Below, in pieces: positions 14,594 to 58,173 of a stretch of DNA of 64,000 nt. The stretch is from NCBI GenBank assembly GCA_027315365.1, contig DAHUYF010000062.1, positions 1 to 64,000 on the forward strand, in the 5' to 3' direction. This DNA comes from Rhodospirillales bacterium (GTDB lineage Bacteria > Pseudomonadota > Alphaproteobacteria > ATCC43930 > CGMCC-115725). How positions within the stretch are numbered: position 1 is the first letter of the stretch; each line of letters starts with the position of its first letter. The translations under genes were made by a program, and so were the position numbers. Below the pieces are notes generated by a model. It made no database searches. It was given only the letters and a program-made list of their open reading frames with translations, and was not told the DNA's origin.

Positions 14594-14599
14594 CGCGGC

Positions 14600-14786
14600 G
14601 AACGCCTCTTTGGCGTTCATCGCGGCGGCGCCGGCGATTGCGTCAGCAATCGCGGGAGCCGCGCGGAGCGGGGTGGCCGCGATGAGGAGGTTGGTAAAGG
14701 GCGCTGGTTCGCTCCGTGCGGCTTTCGCGGTTACTTTCGCAACCGCCGACGCCGCCGCGGACGAATTCCCTGCGGGAATTCGCCTA
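14600..14786 (-). repeat. Palindromic intergenic element, full copy A (starts at sciP stop codon)
   Basis: On the minus strand the element begins with the TAG stop of sciP and holds four hairpins. HP1: CGAATTCCC-GCA-GGGAATTCG (14762-14782). HP2: 14727-14746, loop GAAA on the minus strand. HP3: GCGATTGC-loop-GCAATCGC (14634-14653). HP4: 7-bp stem at 14600-14618. HP1 and HP2 are joined by TCCGCGGCGGCG, and a GAAAGCCGCAC segment follows HP2. The same order of hairpins and linkers recurs in copy B at 45998-46174. Together with the boxes above it fills the ~310-bp gap between sciP and fliF; no gene is supported there. Confidence 0.7.
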
Positions 14787-15074
14787 GGGCTCGCGATAGT
14801 CCTGGAGGCGGGTGACGCGCAGGCCGGGCAGGCCGTGGCTGTCGACCAGGCGTTGCCAGGAGAGGAACTCCTCGATCGACAGCGTGTAGCGGCGACAGGC
14901 CTCCTCGAGGCTGATGATGCCGGCGCGCACGGCCGCCACCACCTCCGCCTTGCGCCGTATGACCCAGCGCTTGGTGTCCGGCGGCGGCAGGCTGTCCAGC
15001 GATGCGATCGGCCCGACAACGTCGAGCCAATCGATCGATGCGGCGGCGAGCGAGGAAGGTGCGTCTGTCTTCAC
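14784..15074 (-). CDS. sciP: CtrA inhibitor SciP (DUF1153)
   Basis: Protein of 96 residues with the DUF1153 helix-turn-helix core: TKRWVIRRKAEVVAAVRAG, ISLEEACRRYTLSIEEFLSWQRL, then HGLPGLRVTRLQDYR. SciP binds CtrA and blocks its transcriptional activity in newborn swarmer cells of Caulobacter. There too the gene sits next to the fliF operon. The start is a GTG at 15074. A CtrA-like box about 50 bp upstream suggests that CtrA drives its own inhibitor, as known in Caulobacter. The stop TAG is the first triplet of palindromic element copy A. Confidence 0.9.
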   Translation of the reverse strand: MKTDAPSSLAAASIDWLDVVGPIASLDSLPPPDTKRWVIRRKAEVVAAVRAGIISLEEACRRYTLSIEEFLSWQRLVDSHGLPGLRVTRLQDYREP

Positions 15075-20545: not shown

Positions 20546-22351
20546 TCACACTTGAATGTCGAGTGAACCGGAGTGGCCGCGCAGCCGCGGCGCCGCCGAT
20601 GCCGCGGCGCCGACCTCGTCGACACCGCTCATCGCACCGCCGCCGGCCGGTCCGCGGGGGCCGGACGATTGCTGCTGGTTGGACTGGTAGCCGCCGCGCA
20701 GATTGAAGCTGAGGCTGCCGCTGTCGGCCTGAAGACCGGCGTCGCGCAGCGCCTGCGCCAGATTGCCGGAATCCTGCTGCAGCAGGTTGAGCGTGTCGCT
20801 GCGGTCGGCAGAGACGACCATCGAGACGCGGCCGTCATGAGTGAAGCTGAGCTTGACCTGGACGGCGCCGAGATCGGCCGGCTGAAGCTGGATGTGGATC
20901 TCGTCGTTGCCCTGCTTGACCGCCTGGCGCAACGAGACCGCGACCTGCTGGCTCACCGCCAGCGATGCGGCGGACAGGGTGGGCGCAGTCTGGGCCATCG
21001 CCGTTGCGGCTGCCGGGGCGGACATTGCCGGGGCGGCGGACGCCGCCGCCAGCTGCGACGCGGCGGTGCCGTTGCCGGCGGCGGACGGATCGCTCGGCGC
21101 CAGGGTGGCTGCGGCCGAGCCGGCATTGGCGGCGACTTGCACCATCGGCTGTGCGGCGCCAGCCGCGGCGGCCTTTGCCGCGGCCGCCACGGCTGCCGCT
21201 GCCTGATCGGAGCCGCCGGACGCGGGCGCGGCGGCAGCGGCAGGTGCGGCAGGATCGCCGCTTGTCGAGGCGGCGGCGTTTGTCGTGGCCGACACGTCGC
21301 CGGCCTTCGCCTGAGCCGACAAATCGGTCGGCGGGAAACTCGCCAGCGCGCTGCGCGGCTGCGACACGAAGGGCGTCGCATTCGTCGTCACCCGCGCGTT
21401 CATCGCGGCGGCCATCGCCGGCAGGCTCTGGGTGGGCCCAAGCGTCTGGGGCGTGGCCGTTGCGCCCGCCGCCGCGCCTGCGCTCGCATCCTGCGCCGGC
21501 TTCGGCGCCGCGGCAGTGTTGCCGGCCGGCGCGCTCGCTGCGGCGGCGGCGGCGGCGAGGCCCTGTACGGTCGCGGCTTGCGCCGCCCCGACAGCGTGGC
21601 CCGCGCCTTTGGCCGCAGGCGGTGGGGCGCCGGCGTTCTTGCCGGCATTCGACGTCGCCGCGGCGCCGGCCAGCGCCGCTGCGGCGGCGTCGGCCGCGGC
21701 GGTGCCGGCGGTCGTCGGATCGGCAGCGCCGCCGGCCTGCGTCGGTGCGCCGGCAGTCGAGGATTGCGGTGCGCCGGTCTTGCCGCCACTCGGAGTGATC
21801 GTTCGCGCCGGCTGCGTCAGCACGACCGGCAGCGGAATGAGGATCGCCGCGGTGGTGCCGTTGGCGGTGCTGTTCTGATCCTTGCCGCTGGCTTGCTTGT
21901 CACCGGCGGTTGACCCGCTTTTGCTGGCGGTGGGGGTCGCCGGCGTTGTCGGCGTCGGCGCCTGAGGCTGCGCCTGAGTTTGTGCCTGCTGCTGCGGCTG
22001 TGCCTGCTGCTGCTGCTGCTGTGCCTGCTGCTGCTGCGGCTGGGCCTGCTGTTGCGGCTGTGCCTGCGGCTGCTGCGGCTGGGCCTGCTGCGGCTGGGCC
22101 TGCTGCGGCTGCGCTTGTATCTGCTGGGCCTGTTCCTGCGGCTGCGCCGGCGCGGCGGCGGCTTGCATCGCGTCGGCGGCATTGCTCGACGCCGAAGCCG
22201 TGTTCGGGTTGTTGGCCGGCGGCGGCGCCTCCGTCTGCACCTGCTGGAACATGCTGAGAAAGTCCAGTCCGCCGGCCTCGCTGGCAAACGAGGGTGCCGG
22301 CGCCGACAGCGCGGGATCGATCGGCAGACTGGGGACGGCAAACGCGCTCAT
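20546..22351 (-). CDS. fliK: Flagellar hook-length control protein FliK
   Basis: Protein of 601 residues. The first ~480 are low-complexity: a Gln/Pro-rich tract (about residues 70-130) and a long Ala-rich region. The last ~110 residues form the canonical Flg_hook domain: VSLRQAVKQGNDEIHIQLQPADLGAVQVKLSF, then VSMVVSADRSDTLNLLQQDSGNLAQALRDAGLQ. FliK is the secreted molecular ruler that measures the hook and switches FlhB from hook to filament substrates. A perfect sigma-54 element lies 28-42 bp upstream of the ATG. It leads the fliK-flgD-flgE operon. Confidence 0.92.
   Translation of the reverse strand: MSAFAVPSLPIDPALSAPAPSFASEAGGLDFLSMFQQVQTEAPPPANNPNTASASSNAADAMQAAAAPAQPQEQAQQIQAQPQQAQPQQAQPQQPQAQPQQQAQPQQQQAQQQQQQAQPQQQAQTQAQPQAPTPTTPATPTASKSGSTAGDKQASGKDQNSTANGTTAAILIPLPVVLTQPARTITPSGGKTGAPQSSTAGAPTQAGGAADPTTAGTAAADAAAAALAGAAATSNAGKNAGAPPPAAKGAGHAVGAAQAATVQGLAAAAAAASAPAGNTAAAPKPAQDASAGAAAGATATPQTLGPTQSLPAMAAAMNARVTTNATPFVSQPRSALASFPPTDLSAQAKAGDVSATTNAAASTSGDPAAPAAAAAPASGGSDQAAAAVAAAAKAAAAGAAQPMVQVAANAGSAAATLAPSDPSAAGNGTAASQLAAASAAPAMSAPAAATAMAQTAPTLSAASLAVSQQVAVSLRQAVKQGNDEIHIQLQPADLGAVQVKLSFTHDGRVSMVVSADRSDTLNLLQQDSGNLAQALRDAGLQADSGSLSFNLRGGYQSNQQQSSGPRGPAGGGAMSGVDEVGAAASAAPRLRGHSGSLDIQV
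21967..22137. repeat. Glutamine-codon repeat tract inside fliK
   Basis: About 170 nt of CTG/TGC-type triplet repetition on the plus strand, reading CAG/CAA-rich on the coding strand and giving PQQAQPQQ-type repeats. Several near-identical units (GCCTGCTGCGGCTGG) occur in tandem. Like the flgD tail, it should be prone to in-frame slippage. It lies in the low-complexity ruler region of FliK. Confidence 0.6.
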
Positions 22352-36075: not shown

Positions 36076-36099
36076 CGCGCCCCTGACGGAGGATCGCCG

Positions 36100-36177
36100 G
36101 CCCGGTGCGGGCTTTCGCGATTGCAAGAGCAACGGCTGGCGCCCGCCCCGCGACGACGCTTGCGCGTCGCGCGGCTA
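36100..36177 (-). repeat. Palindromic intergenic element, half copy D (starts at SDR stop codon)
   Basis: On the minus strand the element starts with the TAG stop of the SDR gene. HP1 region: ACGC-GCAA-GCGT at 36156-36167 inside a CGCG/CGCG frame. HP2: GCCGTTGC-TCTT-GCAATCGC (36117-36136, one mispair), then CGCGAAAGCCCGCACCGGGC. The HP2 loop and linker match copies A and B closely; HP3 and HP4 are missing. It fills the gap between the convergent legH and SDR genes. Confidence 0.6.
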
Positions 36178-45583: not shown

Positions 45584-46000
45584 ATGCGGCCGACGCTTCC
45601 GCCAGACTACAGGCCTTCTGACGCCGAAGAGTTCATGAATCCGCTGCAGCTCGAATATTTTCGCCAGAAGCTCCTGCGATGGCGTGCGGAGCTGCTGGCG
45701 GAGTCGACGGAGACGCTGCTGCATCTGAAGGAAGAGAGCCTCGCCGAACCCGACATCACCGACCGCGCATCGCTCGAGACCGAACGCGCCATCGAGCTGC
45801 GCACGCGCGACCGCGAGCGCAAGCTCATCTCGAAGATCGACGCGGCGCTGATGCGCATCGAGGACGGCAGCTACGGGTTTTGCGAAGAGACCGACGAGCC
45901 GATCAGCCTGCGGCGGCTCGAGGCGCGTCCGATCGCGACGCTGAGCCTCGAGGCGCAGGAGCGCCACGAGCGCATGGAACGCACCCACCGCGACGACTAG
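45584..46000 (+). CDS. dksA: RNA polymerase-binding transcription factor DksA
   Basis: DksA of 138 residues. The N-terminal part has FMNPLQLEYFRQKLLRWRAELL, then a coiled coil with the DxxDRA-type tip DITDRASLETERAIELRTRDRERKLI. The C-terminal globule reads ALMRIEDGSYGFCEETDEPISLRRLEARPIATLSLEAQERHER. Only one Cys remains of the four that bind zinc in the E. coli protein, as in Rhodobacter-type DksA. It modulates promoter opening together with ppGpp. A GTG at 45581 is an alternative start. Its TAG stop begins palindromic element copy B. Confidence 0.93.
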   Translation: MRPTLPPDYRPSDAEEFMNPLQLEYFRQKLLRWRAELLAESTETLLHLKEESLAEPDITDRASLETERAIELRTRDRERKLISKIDAALMRIEDGSYGFCEETDEPISLRRLEARPIATLSLEAQERHERMERTHRDD

Positions 46001-46174
46001 GCGAAAGCGCGCAGCGCTTTCGTCCGCGGCGGCGGCAGCGGTTGCTCTTGCAACCGCGTGAGCCGCACAGGGCACGCGCGAGCTCCGAGAGCCGTTGCCA
46101 ACCCGCACCGCGCGGCTTCCGCGGTTGCTCCGCAATCGCTGTCGCCGCTGCGGATGAACGCGCTGCGCGCGTTC
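45998..46174 (+). repeat. Palindromic intergenic element, full copy B (starts at dksA stop codon)
   Basis: Begins with the TAG of dksA. Four hairpins: HP1 CGAAAGCGC-GCA-GCGCTTTCG (46002-46022); HP2 GCGGTTGC-TCTT-GCAACCGC (46038-46057); HP3 GCGGTTGC-TCC-GCAATCGC (46121-46139); HP4 GAACGCGC-TGC-GCGCGTTC (46156-46174). TCCGCGGCGGCG joins HP1 and HP2, and a GAGCCGCAC segment follows HP2. It aligns along its whole length with the reverse complement of copy A. The flgH stop codon is 5 nt after HP4, so the element exactly fills the convergent dksA/flgH gap. No gene is seen in it. Confidence 0.7.
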
Positions 46175-46178
46175 AGGG

Positions 46179-46931
46179 CTAAAACGGCGCCGCGATGTCG
46201 ATGAGCTGCTCGCCGTAGCGCGGCTGCTGCATGTTGTCGATCCAGCCGCGGCCGCCATAGGAGACGCGCGCCTCCGCCAGCTTGTCGAGACTCACCGTGT
46301 TGACCGCGCTGATGTCCAGCGGCCGCACCACGCCGGTGACCTGCAGGTCGCGGATGTCGTGATTGACCCGCATTTCCTGGTGGCCGACGATGACCAGATC
46401 GCCATTGGGCAGCACTTGCGTCACCATCGCGGCGACATTGAACGTGACCTGCTCCTGGCGCTGGATCTGGGCGATCGTCTGGTTGTTGGTGACGCCGTTG
46501 ATGTTGAAGAGGTTGTTGGTGGCGGTCGCACCCCCGGCCGCGCCCAGCCCGAAGAGCCACTTCAGACCGAAGATGTCGGCGCCGTCCTGCTCCTGCGTGT
46601 AGCGCTGACCCTGGGTATTGTTGTTGAACTGGGCCTGGTCGTTGAAGGAGACGACAATGGTGAGGATGTCGCCGGGCTGGTTGGCGCGCTGATCCTTGAA
46701 GAAGGCGCGGCTGCCGGTCTGCCACAGCGAACTCGGCCGTCGCTCGTTGACCGTGGGGGCGGGCATCGGCAGCGAGACCGGCTTGTAGCCCGGCTGCTGG
46801 CGCGGGTCCTGGATGGTGGTGAGCGGCGGCGACTCGCCGAGCTGCGACAGTCGCGACCAGGCGTTGCAGCCGGAGAGCAGCGCCGCGGCGAGCAGCGGGG
46901 CGAGGCAGCGGGCGAGGCGGGGGGAGTTCAT
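46179..46931 (-). CDS. flgH: Flagellar L-ring lipoprotein FlgH
   Basis: Lipoprotein of 250 residues. The signal peptide ends in the lipobox LLSGC near residue 22. Conserved FlgH blocks follow: SLWQTGSRAFFKDQRANQPGDILTIVVSFNDQAQFNN, then VLPNGDLVIVGHQEMRVNHDIRDLQVTGVVRPLDISAVNTVSLDKLAEARVSYGGRG. It builds the outer-membrane ring of the basal body. Last gene of the flgF-flgG-flgA-flgH operon. Confidence 0.95.
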   Translation of the reverse strand: MNSPRLARCLAPLLAAALLSGCNAWSRLSQLGESPPLTTIQDPRQQPGYKPVSLPMPAPTVNERRPSSLWQTGSRAFFKDQRANQPGDILTIVVSFNDQAQFNNNTQGQRYTQEQDGADIFGLKWLFGLGAAGGATATNNLFNINGVTNNQTIAQIQRQEQVTFNVAAMVTQVLPNGDLVIVGHQEMRVNHDIRDLQVTGVVRPLDISAVNTVSLDKLAEARVSYGGRGWIDNMQQPRYGEQLIDIAAPF

Positions 46932-56630: not shown

Positions 56631-56638
56631 CGGGCCGA

Positions 56639-56661
56639 GGCGAGCGCAAAGCGCTCGCCTA
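56639..56661 (-). repeat. Palindromic element, hairpin-only copy C (starts at peptidase stop codon)
   Basis: On the minus strand TAGGCGAGCGC-TTT-GCGCTCGCC: a 9-bp perfect stem whose TAG is the stop codon of the S10 peptidase gene. The TAGGCGA start is the same as in copies A and B, but the loop is TTT instead of GCA and nothing beyond HP1 is present. It sits in the 28-bp convergent gap after the TPR protein gene and may simply act as a bidirectional terminator. Confidence 0.5.
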
Positions 56662-58173
56662 GCCGGCGTAGAATGCCGCCGCGTCCTCGCGCAGGCGCTG
56701 GCGCGAGCCGGGGCGCAAATACATCATGTGGCCGCCCGGGTAGAGCTTGAGCGTCACGCGCTCGGCGGTGACGTTGGCCGGCAGGTGCGCGATGATATAG
56801 CGGCTCATCATGTAGGGCGTCGTCAGGTCGGTCAGCCCGTGCGCGATCAGCAGCTTGAGCGTCGGCTGCAGCGACAGCGCGCGGGCGAGCGCATCGGCGG
56901 CGCCGAGGCTCCGGCGGTCGTCGGAATTGCCCTCGTGCCATTGCCAATCGTGGCTTACCGCGTCGTTGAGCAGCGCGTAGGCGAGGTCGGTATCGAAGCC
57001 GAGCTCGTCGCGGGCATAGGCGGTGAAGGCGCGGGTGAAGGGCGCGATGGTGCCCTGGAGGATGGGATCGTCCTCGCCATAGGAGCTCGACGGATCGGGA
57101 TCGGGCGCGCCGACCGTGCCGTCATAGCGGCTGAGGATCTGGCCGTGGTCGCGGCCCATCGCCTTGACATAGGCGCCGGCCGGCACGCGGCCGCTCCAGC
57201 GCGCGACAAGGGCGTCGTCGAGCCCGGTGAGGGCGGCGATGCGGTGATAGAAATCCTCCGGCCGCCCGGCCGCGGCGGCGGCGAGGCCGACCAGGTAGTC
57301 GCCCAGCGCGAAGCGCTCGGCCTCGCCCAGCGCGTCCGGGGTCAGCGCATGCCTGTCCTCGAGCGCGACCGCGGCATAGGAGGGCAGCTTCAGCGCCCAG
57401 GGCAGCAGGTCGAAGCGGTCGCCGCTCATCAGCCGGAACTCGATCACCGGCGAGACCAGCAGCACCCCGGCGGCGGCGACGCCTTCGCGCTGGGCCAGCA
57501 GCTGCGACAGGCGCGCCGCGCGGAACCCGCCATAGCTCTCGCCGACCAGGTAGACCGGCGAGGTCAGCCGGTTGGAGCGCGCGAGATGCAGCCGGATGAT
57601 CTGCGCCAGCGCATCGAGGTCGGGGTCGACGCTCCACAGCTTCTTGGCGACATCGTCGCTCGTCGCGCGGCTGTAGCCGGTGCCGACCGGGTCGATGAAC
57701 ACGAGGTCGGTGAAGGGCAGCCAGGTGTCGGGATTGTCGGCGACGCGGTTGCTCGCCGGCTGCGGCAGGCCGCCGCCGGGACCGAAGTCGAGCGCCCGCG
57801 GCCCGAGCGCGCCGATGTCGAGATAGGCGGAGGCGGCGCCCGGCCCGCCGTTGAAGGCGTAGGTCACCGGCCGCTGCGACGCGTCGGCGACGCCGTCGAG
57901 GGTGAAGGCGACGTAGAAGATGTCGGCCTGCTTCTCGCCCTTGTCGTTGCGCAGCGGCAGCGTGCCGGCGGTGGCGGTGTAGCCGAACTCCTTGCCGGCG
58001 AGCTTGAGCTTGTGGCGCGTGACGGAATCCGCCGGCAGCAGCGGCAGCGTGGCCGAAGCGCCGGCCGCGGCGGGCTTTGCCGCGGGCGGGTGGCGCGGCG
58101 CCTCCTGGCCGAGCGCCGGCGTGGCGAGCAGCAGCAAGGCGGCGAGGGAGAGAACGGAGCGGCGGCGGCGCAT
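56659..58173 (-). CDS. S10 family serine carboxypeptidase-like protein
   Basis: Secreted hydrolase of 504 residues with a signal peptide (SVLSLAALLLLATPALGQ). It has the S10 core: FNGGPGAASAYLDIGALGPR, LVFIDPVGTGYSRA, and the nucleophile elbow VYLVGESYGGFRAARLSQLL with the catalytic Ser in GESYGG. LLIAHGLTDLTTPYMMSRYII carries the Asp region, and LYPGGHMMYLRPGSR the His. It would act in the periplasm on peptides. Nothing ties it to the flagellum, yet it interrupts the cluster between the cheZ operon and fliP, with element copy C at its end. Confidence 0.87.
   Translation of the reverse strand: MRRRRSVLSLAALLLLATPALGQEAPRHPPAAKPAAAGASATLPLLPADSVTRHKLKLAGKEFGYTATAGTLPLRNDKGEKQADIFYVAFTLDGVADASQRPVTYAFNGGPGAASAYLDIGALGPRALDFGPGGGLPQPASNRVADNPDTWLPFTDLVFIDPVGTGYSRATSDDVAKKLWSVDPDLDALAQIIRLHLARSNRLTSPVYLVGESYGGFRAARLSQLLAQREGVAAAGVLLVSPVIEFRLMSGDRFDLLPWALKLPSYAAVALEDRHALTPDALGEAERFALGDYLVGLAAAAAGRPEDFYHRIAALTGLDDALVARWSGRVPAGAYVKAMGRDHGQILSRYDGTVGAPDPDPSSSYGEDDPILQGTIAPFTRAFTAYARDELGFDTDLAYALLNDAVSHDWQWHEGNSDDRRSLGAADALARALSLQPTLKLLIAHGLTDLTTPYMMSRYIIAHLPANVTAERVTLKLYPGGHMMYLRPGSRQRLREDAAAFYAG

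Follow-up and report, generated by a model that had tools for sequence, protein, structure and literature searches.

A genus-restricted family of REP-like two-hairpin repeats associated with TAG stop codons in Alphaproteobacteria

Di Nocera et al. (2013; PMC3733652) reported on two kinds of REPs, termed GTAG and CGTC. Both form dimers and lie near the 3΄ ends of genes, between convergent as well as same-direction genes; the termini of GTAG REPs 'often provide' the TAG stop codon, and no transposase accompanies CGTC REPs. Cleavage by REP transposases takes place at CT or CA flanking a hairpin, and the tag is required (PMC8266576). Here we compare with these systems a family of palindromic repeats that we analyzed in a 64,000-nucleotide (64-kb) stretch of alphaproteobacterial DNA (the window) and across the genus from which it comes. 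The genome is GC-rich, and many short inverted repeats occur. A degenerate CTG-rich tandem repeat (window 21949-22138) lies in a called gene (20546-22351, minus strand) and encodes a Gln/Ala-rich stretch.

Genes were called by a self-trained codon model, and repeats were detected with a covariance model (R1) built from 13 type-1 units. This model found five units in the window, the hairpins of which are termed HP1 and HP2. The features are as follows:

14594..14677, plus strand: unit A2, inverted partner of A1, in the sciP-fliF spacer (R1 77.4 bits, E = 3.3e-10)
14703..14787, minus strand: unit A1, whose CTAG end contains the sciP stop codon (R1 96.1 bits, E = 4.6e-13)
14784..14786, minus strand: TAG stop codon of sciP (DUF1153) (gene calls)
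36092..36174, minus strand: single unit with a type 2 HP1 (outer stem GCGGGC/GCCCGC; R1 42.8 bits, E = 6.2e-5)
45997..46081, plus strand: unit B1 (R1 92.8 bits, E = 1.4e-12; fold)
45997-46000, about 46000-46025 and about 46029-46066, plus strand: CTAG end, HP1 and HP2 of B1 (fold)
45998..46000, plus strand: TAG stop codon of dksA, inside the CTAG end of B1 (gene calls)
46097..46178, minus strand: unit B2, inverted partner of B1, adjoining the flgH stop codon (R1 78.9 bits, E = 2e-10)
46179..46181, minus strand: TAG stop codon of flgH (gene calls)
56639..56662, minus strand: HP1-like hairpin with a CTAG end that supplies the TAG stop codon of the S10 peptidase gene (R1 17 bits, E = 0.55, not significant)

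Copy B is located between the convergent genes dksA and flgH, and copy A on the minus strand in the sciP/fliF spacer, where A2 is not located at a stop codon. Both copies folded more stably than shuffled sequences (z = -9.4 for A and -8.2 for B; 0 of 200 shuffles as good). A first-pass annotation had aligned A with B end to end with the same hairpin order, had noted three compensated pairs in HP1 (CGAATTCCC/GGGAATTCG becoming CGAAAGCGC/GCGCTTTCG), and had noted that the TAG at four sites terminates sciP (A), dksA (B), one gene for an SDR and one for an S10 peptidase; all of these observations were reproduced, the alignment with the reverse complement of 14594-14787 for A and with 45997-46178 for B. 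It had also read each copy as a single element of four hairpins. The hairpins are present, but they belong to two inverted units per copy, and all four units were detected separately at E ≤ 3.3e-10. When the whole genome was searched with B by BLASTN, many of the 59 matches were confined to one half of it, and B also aligned with itself in reverse complement; the elementary unit is therefore about 85 nt long, and A and B are each two inverted units arranged tail to tail. Similarly, what had been taken for a half copy at 36.1 kb turned out to be one complete unit (36092-36174), directly 3΄ of the TAG stop codon of the SDR gene (36175-36177). The hairpin at 56639-56661 was not a significant member of the family, having in common with the units only CTAG and an HP1-like design; in the three congeners, the S10 peptidase gene ends with TGA one codon later and has no such hairpin. 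At the counterparts of window positions 56631-56661 (L174, L175 at about 895-955, and L176), an AT-richer repeat (GTCGTCAGTTATCAGTCATCAG..., with inverted copies) takes the place of the HP1-like hairpin.

Each unit consists, in order, of the CTAG end, HP1, the linker GCGGCGGCGNCA, HP2 and CACCGTGCGGACTAGC, with a second CTAG-like end. HP1 has a variable stem with an extruded (bulged) base on its 3΄ side and occurs in two types, TAGGCGAA...TTCGTCCGCGG and CTAGCGCGACGC...GCGTCGTCGCTGG. HP2 (GCGGTTGC...GCAACCGC) has a near-constant stem with an internal loop, and its outer closing stem, across this 4 x 4 internal loop, is GCGGC/GCCGC or GCGGGC/GCCCGC. The commonest tetranucleotide in 59 strong units was CTAG at both the left end (25/59) and the right end (18/59); CAAG was found at 8 of the 59 left ends, GTAG was not among the left ends listed, and the left and right tetranucleotides of one unit were often unlike. 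Units occur singly, in inverted tail-to-tail pairs such as A and B, and in tandem or nested groups; single units lack terminal inverted repeats, and inverted pairs give long ones. Tandem same-direction units (L131, L134, L149, L163 and L168) have a common junction, GAGAGC|CCTAGG, with a period of ~71 nt, and among nested or truncated units we observed apparent insertions into another unit at HP2 (L129) or just past its left end (L074).

A search of the 4.97-Mb genome with R1 yielded 79 units (E ≤ 0.1), a number that is a floor, as the best candidates alone were scored, and in which the weakest matches may be due to chance. Units were present in all four genomes of the genus (this one and three congeners). 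The covariance model detected the unit in 4 of 43 genomes of the order, the 39 outside the genus being without it, and in 4 of 41 relatives, a set that overlaps the former and has 37 members outside the genus; the positives were the genus in both cases. Among 84,980 GTDB species, an exact core pattern matched three alphaproteobacterial MAGs (JOPF181, JOPF156 and JOPF114) and, once, a gammaproteobacterial MAG (L151); the latter is isolated and receives no support from the covariance model, and was rejected. Copies within the genome are divergent (median identity 69%; about 91% for the best non-tandem pair), and thus no recent transposition is seen.

We then compared base pairing among 97 distinct units, and found that 98.1% of the cells were paired. 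Changes on both sides were observed in 16 of 24 pairs, including all 11 pairs of HP1, and affected 181 cells, compared with a mean of 35 in shuffled alignments. None of 500 shuffles reached any of five covariation measures, and sliding the partners abolished the signal. Fitting of the alignment to the model introduces some bias toward structure, but the contrasts within HP1 (e.g. GC:54/CG:35) are independent of that fit. In a GC-rich genome, where short inverted repeats are plentiful, palindromes might resemble each other by accident; the occurrence of 79 model matches in one genus only and the covariation described above already refute this explanation, the probability of which is negligible.

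Twelve comparisons of orthologous units, not all independent, showed 40 compensated, 8 one-sided and 14 broken pairs. However, orthologous units were 70% identical and hence no more alike than random pairs (74-75%), so that replacement of one copy by another can mimic compensation. This may reflect either saturation under selection for pairing or such replacement. One orthologous pair (L099/L133) favors saturation, because the two units have odd linker features in common, their flanks are 91% identical and the changes in HP1 are compensated.

Units lie downstream of stop codons in the sense direction, and 64 of 141 (about 45%) begin within 8 nt of the stop codon of a same-strand upstream gene. 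The stop codons at these 64 units were TAG in 53 cases, TAA in 10 and TGA in 1, a significant enrichment of TAG compared with other genes (P = 7e-11); the genes of the window use TGA 32, TAG 15 and TAA 7 times. A start exactly at TAG, proposed in the first-pass annotation, is not supported as a rule, since 45% of the units lie at a stop codon and for 53 of those 64 it is TAG. Its broader proposal of a genuine, dispersed, pairing-constrained and REP-like family with a tight stop-codon association was supported. The check that it had suggested, a covariance-model search of the genome and relatives, returned further copies, covariation and the association with stop codons.

A manual count over 15 loci gave 28 orthologous gene ends without a unit, and in every one the stop lies at the same codon position (10 TAG, 10 TAA and 8 TGA). 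TAR was enriched at these ends compared with the genes of the window (P = 0.011), and TAG was rarer than at filled sites (P = 2e-5). In 19 of 22 comparisons between species, TGA stop codons of the window were conserved, so it is probable that the TAG of some loci arrived with the element. CTAG itself is avoided nearly four-fold in the window (18 observed versus 68 expected), and 10 of the 18 sites are stop codons of genes; units away from stop codons likewise have CTAG most often at their left end (9 of 29 strong units). A repeat that carries a CTAG tag or targets CTAG therefore lands at stop codons, and the placement is explained without special recognition of stop codons. An insertion machinery aimed at any translation stop codon (TAG, TAA and TGA alike) might be proposed because at the 15 loci units sit on the codon at which the unit-free orthologues, with all three stop codons among them, end; we consider it quite improbable. 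At one gene end that carries a unit in this genome (G000), the orthologue in G001 (counterpart of the L050 gene end) has a different palindrome, TAGCCCGGATTTCTCAC...GTGAGAAATCCGGGCTAG (L200, about 1681-1747), located precisely at the TAG stop codon, that is, another repeat family at the same site.

Taken together, we think it fairly probable that the element is a non-autonomous, REP-like mobile repeat. An enzyme recognizing a folded single strand together with a (C)TAG-like tetranucleotide would have copied units to new sites. CTAG is strongly avoided in this GC-rich genome and would remain mostly as stop codons, and insertions inside genes would be harmful, so that insertions might accumulate exactly at TAG stop codons, at which the element's own TAG would be able to act as the stop codon. 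Because the transcribed HP1 has its start on the stop codon itself, it may hinder translation termination or shield the 3΄ end of the mRNA, and this would favor the retention of its pairing. The presence or absence of units at the same gene ends differs between species, and many orthologous gene ends have no unit. For example, at the end of dksA, the inverted pair is present in G000 and G001, G002 has a simple hairpin of HP1 only (TAAAGGCGAACGCGC-TCC-GCGCGTTCGCCTTTAG), and both are missing from G003. There, the sequence 3΄ of dksA (L171) is unrelated to those of the other species and gives the impression of an IS insertion. No Y1/RAYT transposase was detected in the four genomes with the PF01797 and NF047646 HMMs, which matched the controls, and no candidate mobilizer was found; a resident RAYT/Y1 mobilizer was thus rejected as a candidate, with the reservation that the three congener genomes are drafts of 78-82% completeness and that each of the four is fragmented, so that this absence is not proof. 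We likewise rejected a transposon reading of two pairs of same-strand units about 1 kb apart (C75 and C170), the intervening ORFs of which did not look transposase-like by eye. No clean target-site duplication was found at the units. Pairing persists at orthologous sites, which counts against a mobile repeat in that a dead insertion would lose its pairing.

Alternatively, the units could act in cis as RNA elements at the 3΄ ends of mRNAs, as stabilizers, in blocking Rho or in termination of translation, and be kept by selection for pairing at each site, with mobility incidental or ancient. The compensated changes at orthologous units, particularly in L099/L133, and the position of units 3΄ of stop codons in the sense direction are consistent with such a role, and E. 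coli REPs at most 15 nt from a stop codon are reported in PMC12306157 to stall ribosomes. However, about half of the units are located away from stop codons, the unit-free gene ends are numerous, and copy replacement may account for the apparent compensation. In addition, an intrinsic-terminator function, suggested by the first-pass annotation, was not supported, as no T tract follows the hairpins of B and the hits at A were limited to two weak ones of five pairs each, on the strand opposite that of sciP. We regard the explanation by cis-acting elements as rather unlikely. It is nevertheless plausible that translation termination or mRNA decay is affected, and because HP1 starts on the stop codon, we infer that ribosome stalling as in E. 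coli may be the best functional lead. The pairs could also be MITEs moved by a DDE transposase of the IS630- or IS5-like type, the target preferences of which are TA, CTAG or YTAR, so that the CTAG-like ends would be target duplications. The CTAG-like tetranucleotides at both ends and the preference for TAR at stop codons agree with this explanation, but the two tetranucleotides of one unit often differ and terminal inverted repeats are absent from single units; we consider it improbable.

Returning to the non-autonomous REP-like repeat, the units resemble GTAG REPs (BIMEs, REPINs and the RAYT system) in being dispersed palindromic units, forming inverted pairs or dimers, and lying in intergenic regions near gene 3΄ ends, and in having a TAG-containing tetranucleotide beside an irregular-stem hairpin, with termini that supply TAG stop codons to ORFs. 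The unit ends CT(AG) and CA(AG) may be compatible with REP transposase chemistry, which offers a lead. However, the unit is ~85 nt long with two hairpins in most copies, whereas GTAG REPs are 20-40 nt long with one palindrome; its tag is CTAG or CAAG with the G paired, whereas GTAG is unpaired in GTAG REPs; and the GTAG REP system has a RAYT (Y1), of which none was found in the genus of the unit. The units are akin to CGTC REPs in occurring as palindromic repeats in Alphaproteobacteria, in forming dimers and in lacking a dedicated transposase. In CGTC REPs, the stem measures 8-9 bp and opens with A-T pairs, and it has an unpaired CGTC on one side and a CCA tail at the other end, whereas the unit has CGTC only on the 3΄ side of HP1, with its CG paired; membership was rejected, since in the unit alignments neither the position nor the pairing of the motif fits. 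The Br-REP1 and Br-REP2 repeats of Bradyrhizobium are also multi-palindrome repeats in 3΄ UTRs and between convergent genes (PMC5082802), but their consensus sequences (CCGGAATCTCGAGATTCCGG; CGAGATTCCGGGTTCGGCTCTT...) are unrelated to that of the unit.

The family had been called undescribed. This is correct for the sequence family, which is restricted to one genus and, in the window, has no match in Rfam, but not for its behavior, because stop-codon use, pairing and downstream position were already known for REPs (PMC3733652). The avoidance of CTAG, whose principal remaining sites are stop codons, gives a simple account of stop-codon placement, and the presence or absence of units at identical stop codons across the genus means that species comparison can test the effect of a hairpin beginning on the stop codon. 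The unit is set apart from both REP superfamilies because it has neither the defining tag nor the size of either; it is of the REP kind, a compound, genus-restricted two-hairpin CTAG family and not a GTAG REP. It adds a two-hairpin REP-type family from one uncharacterized alphaproteobacterial genus to this class of repeats.
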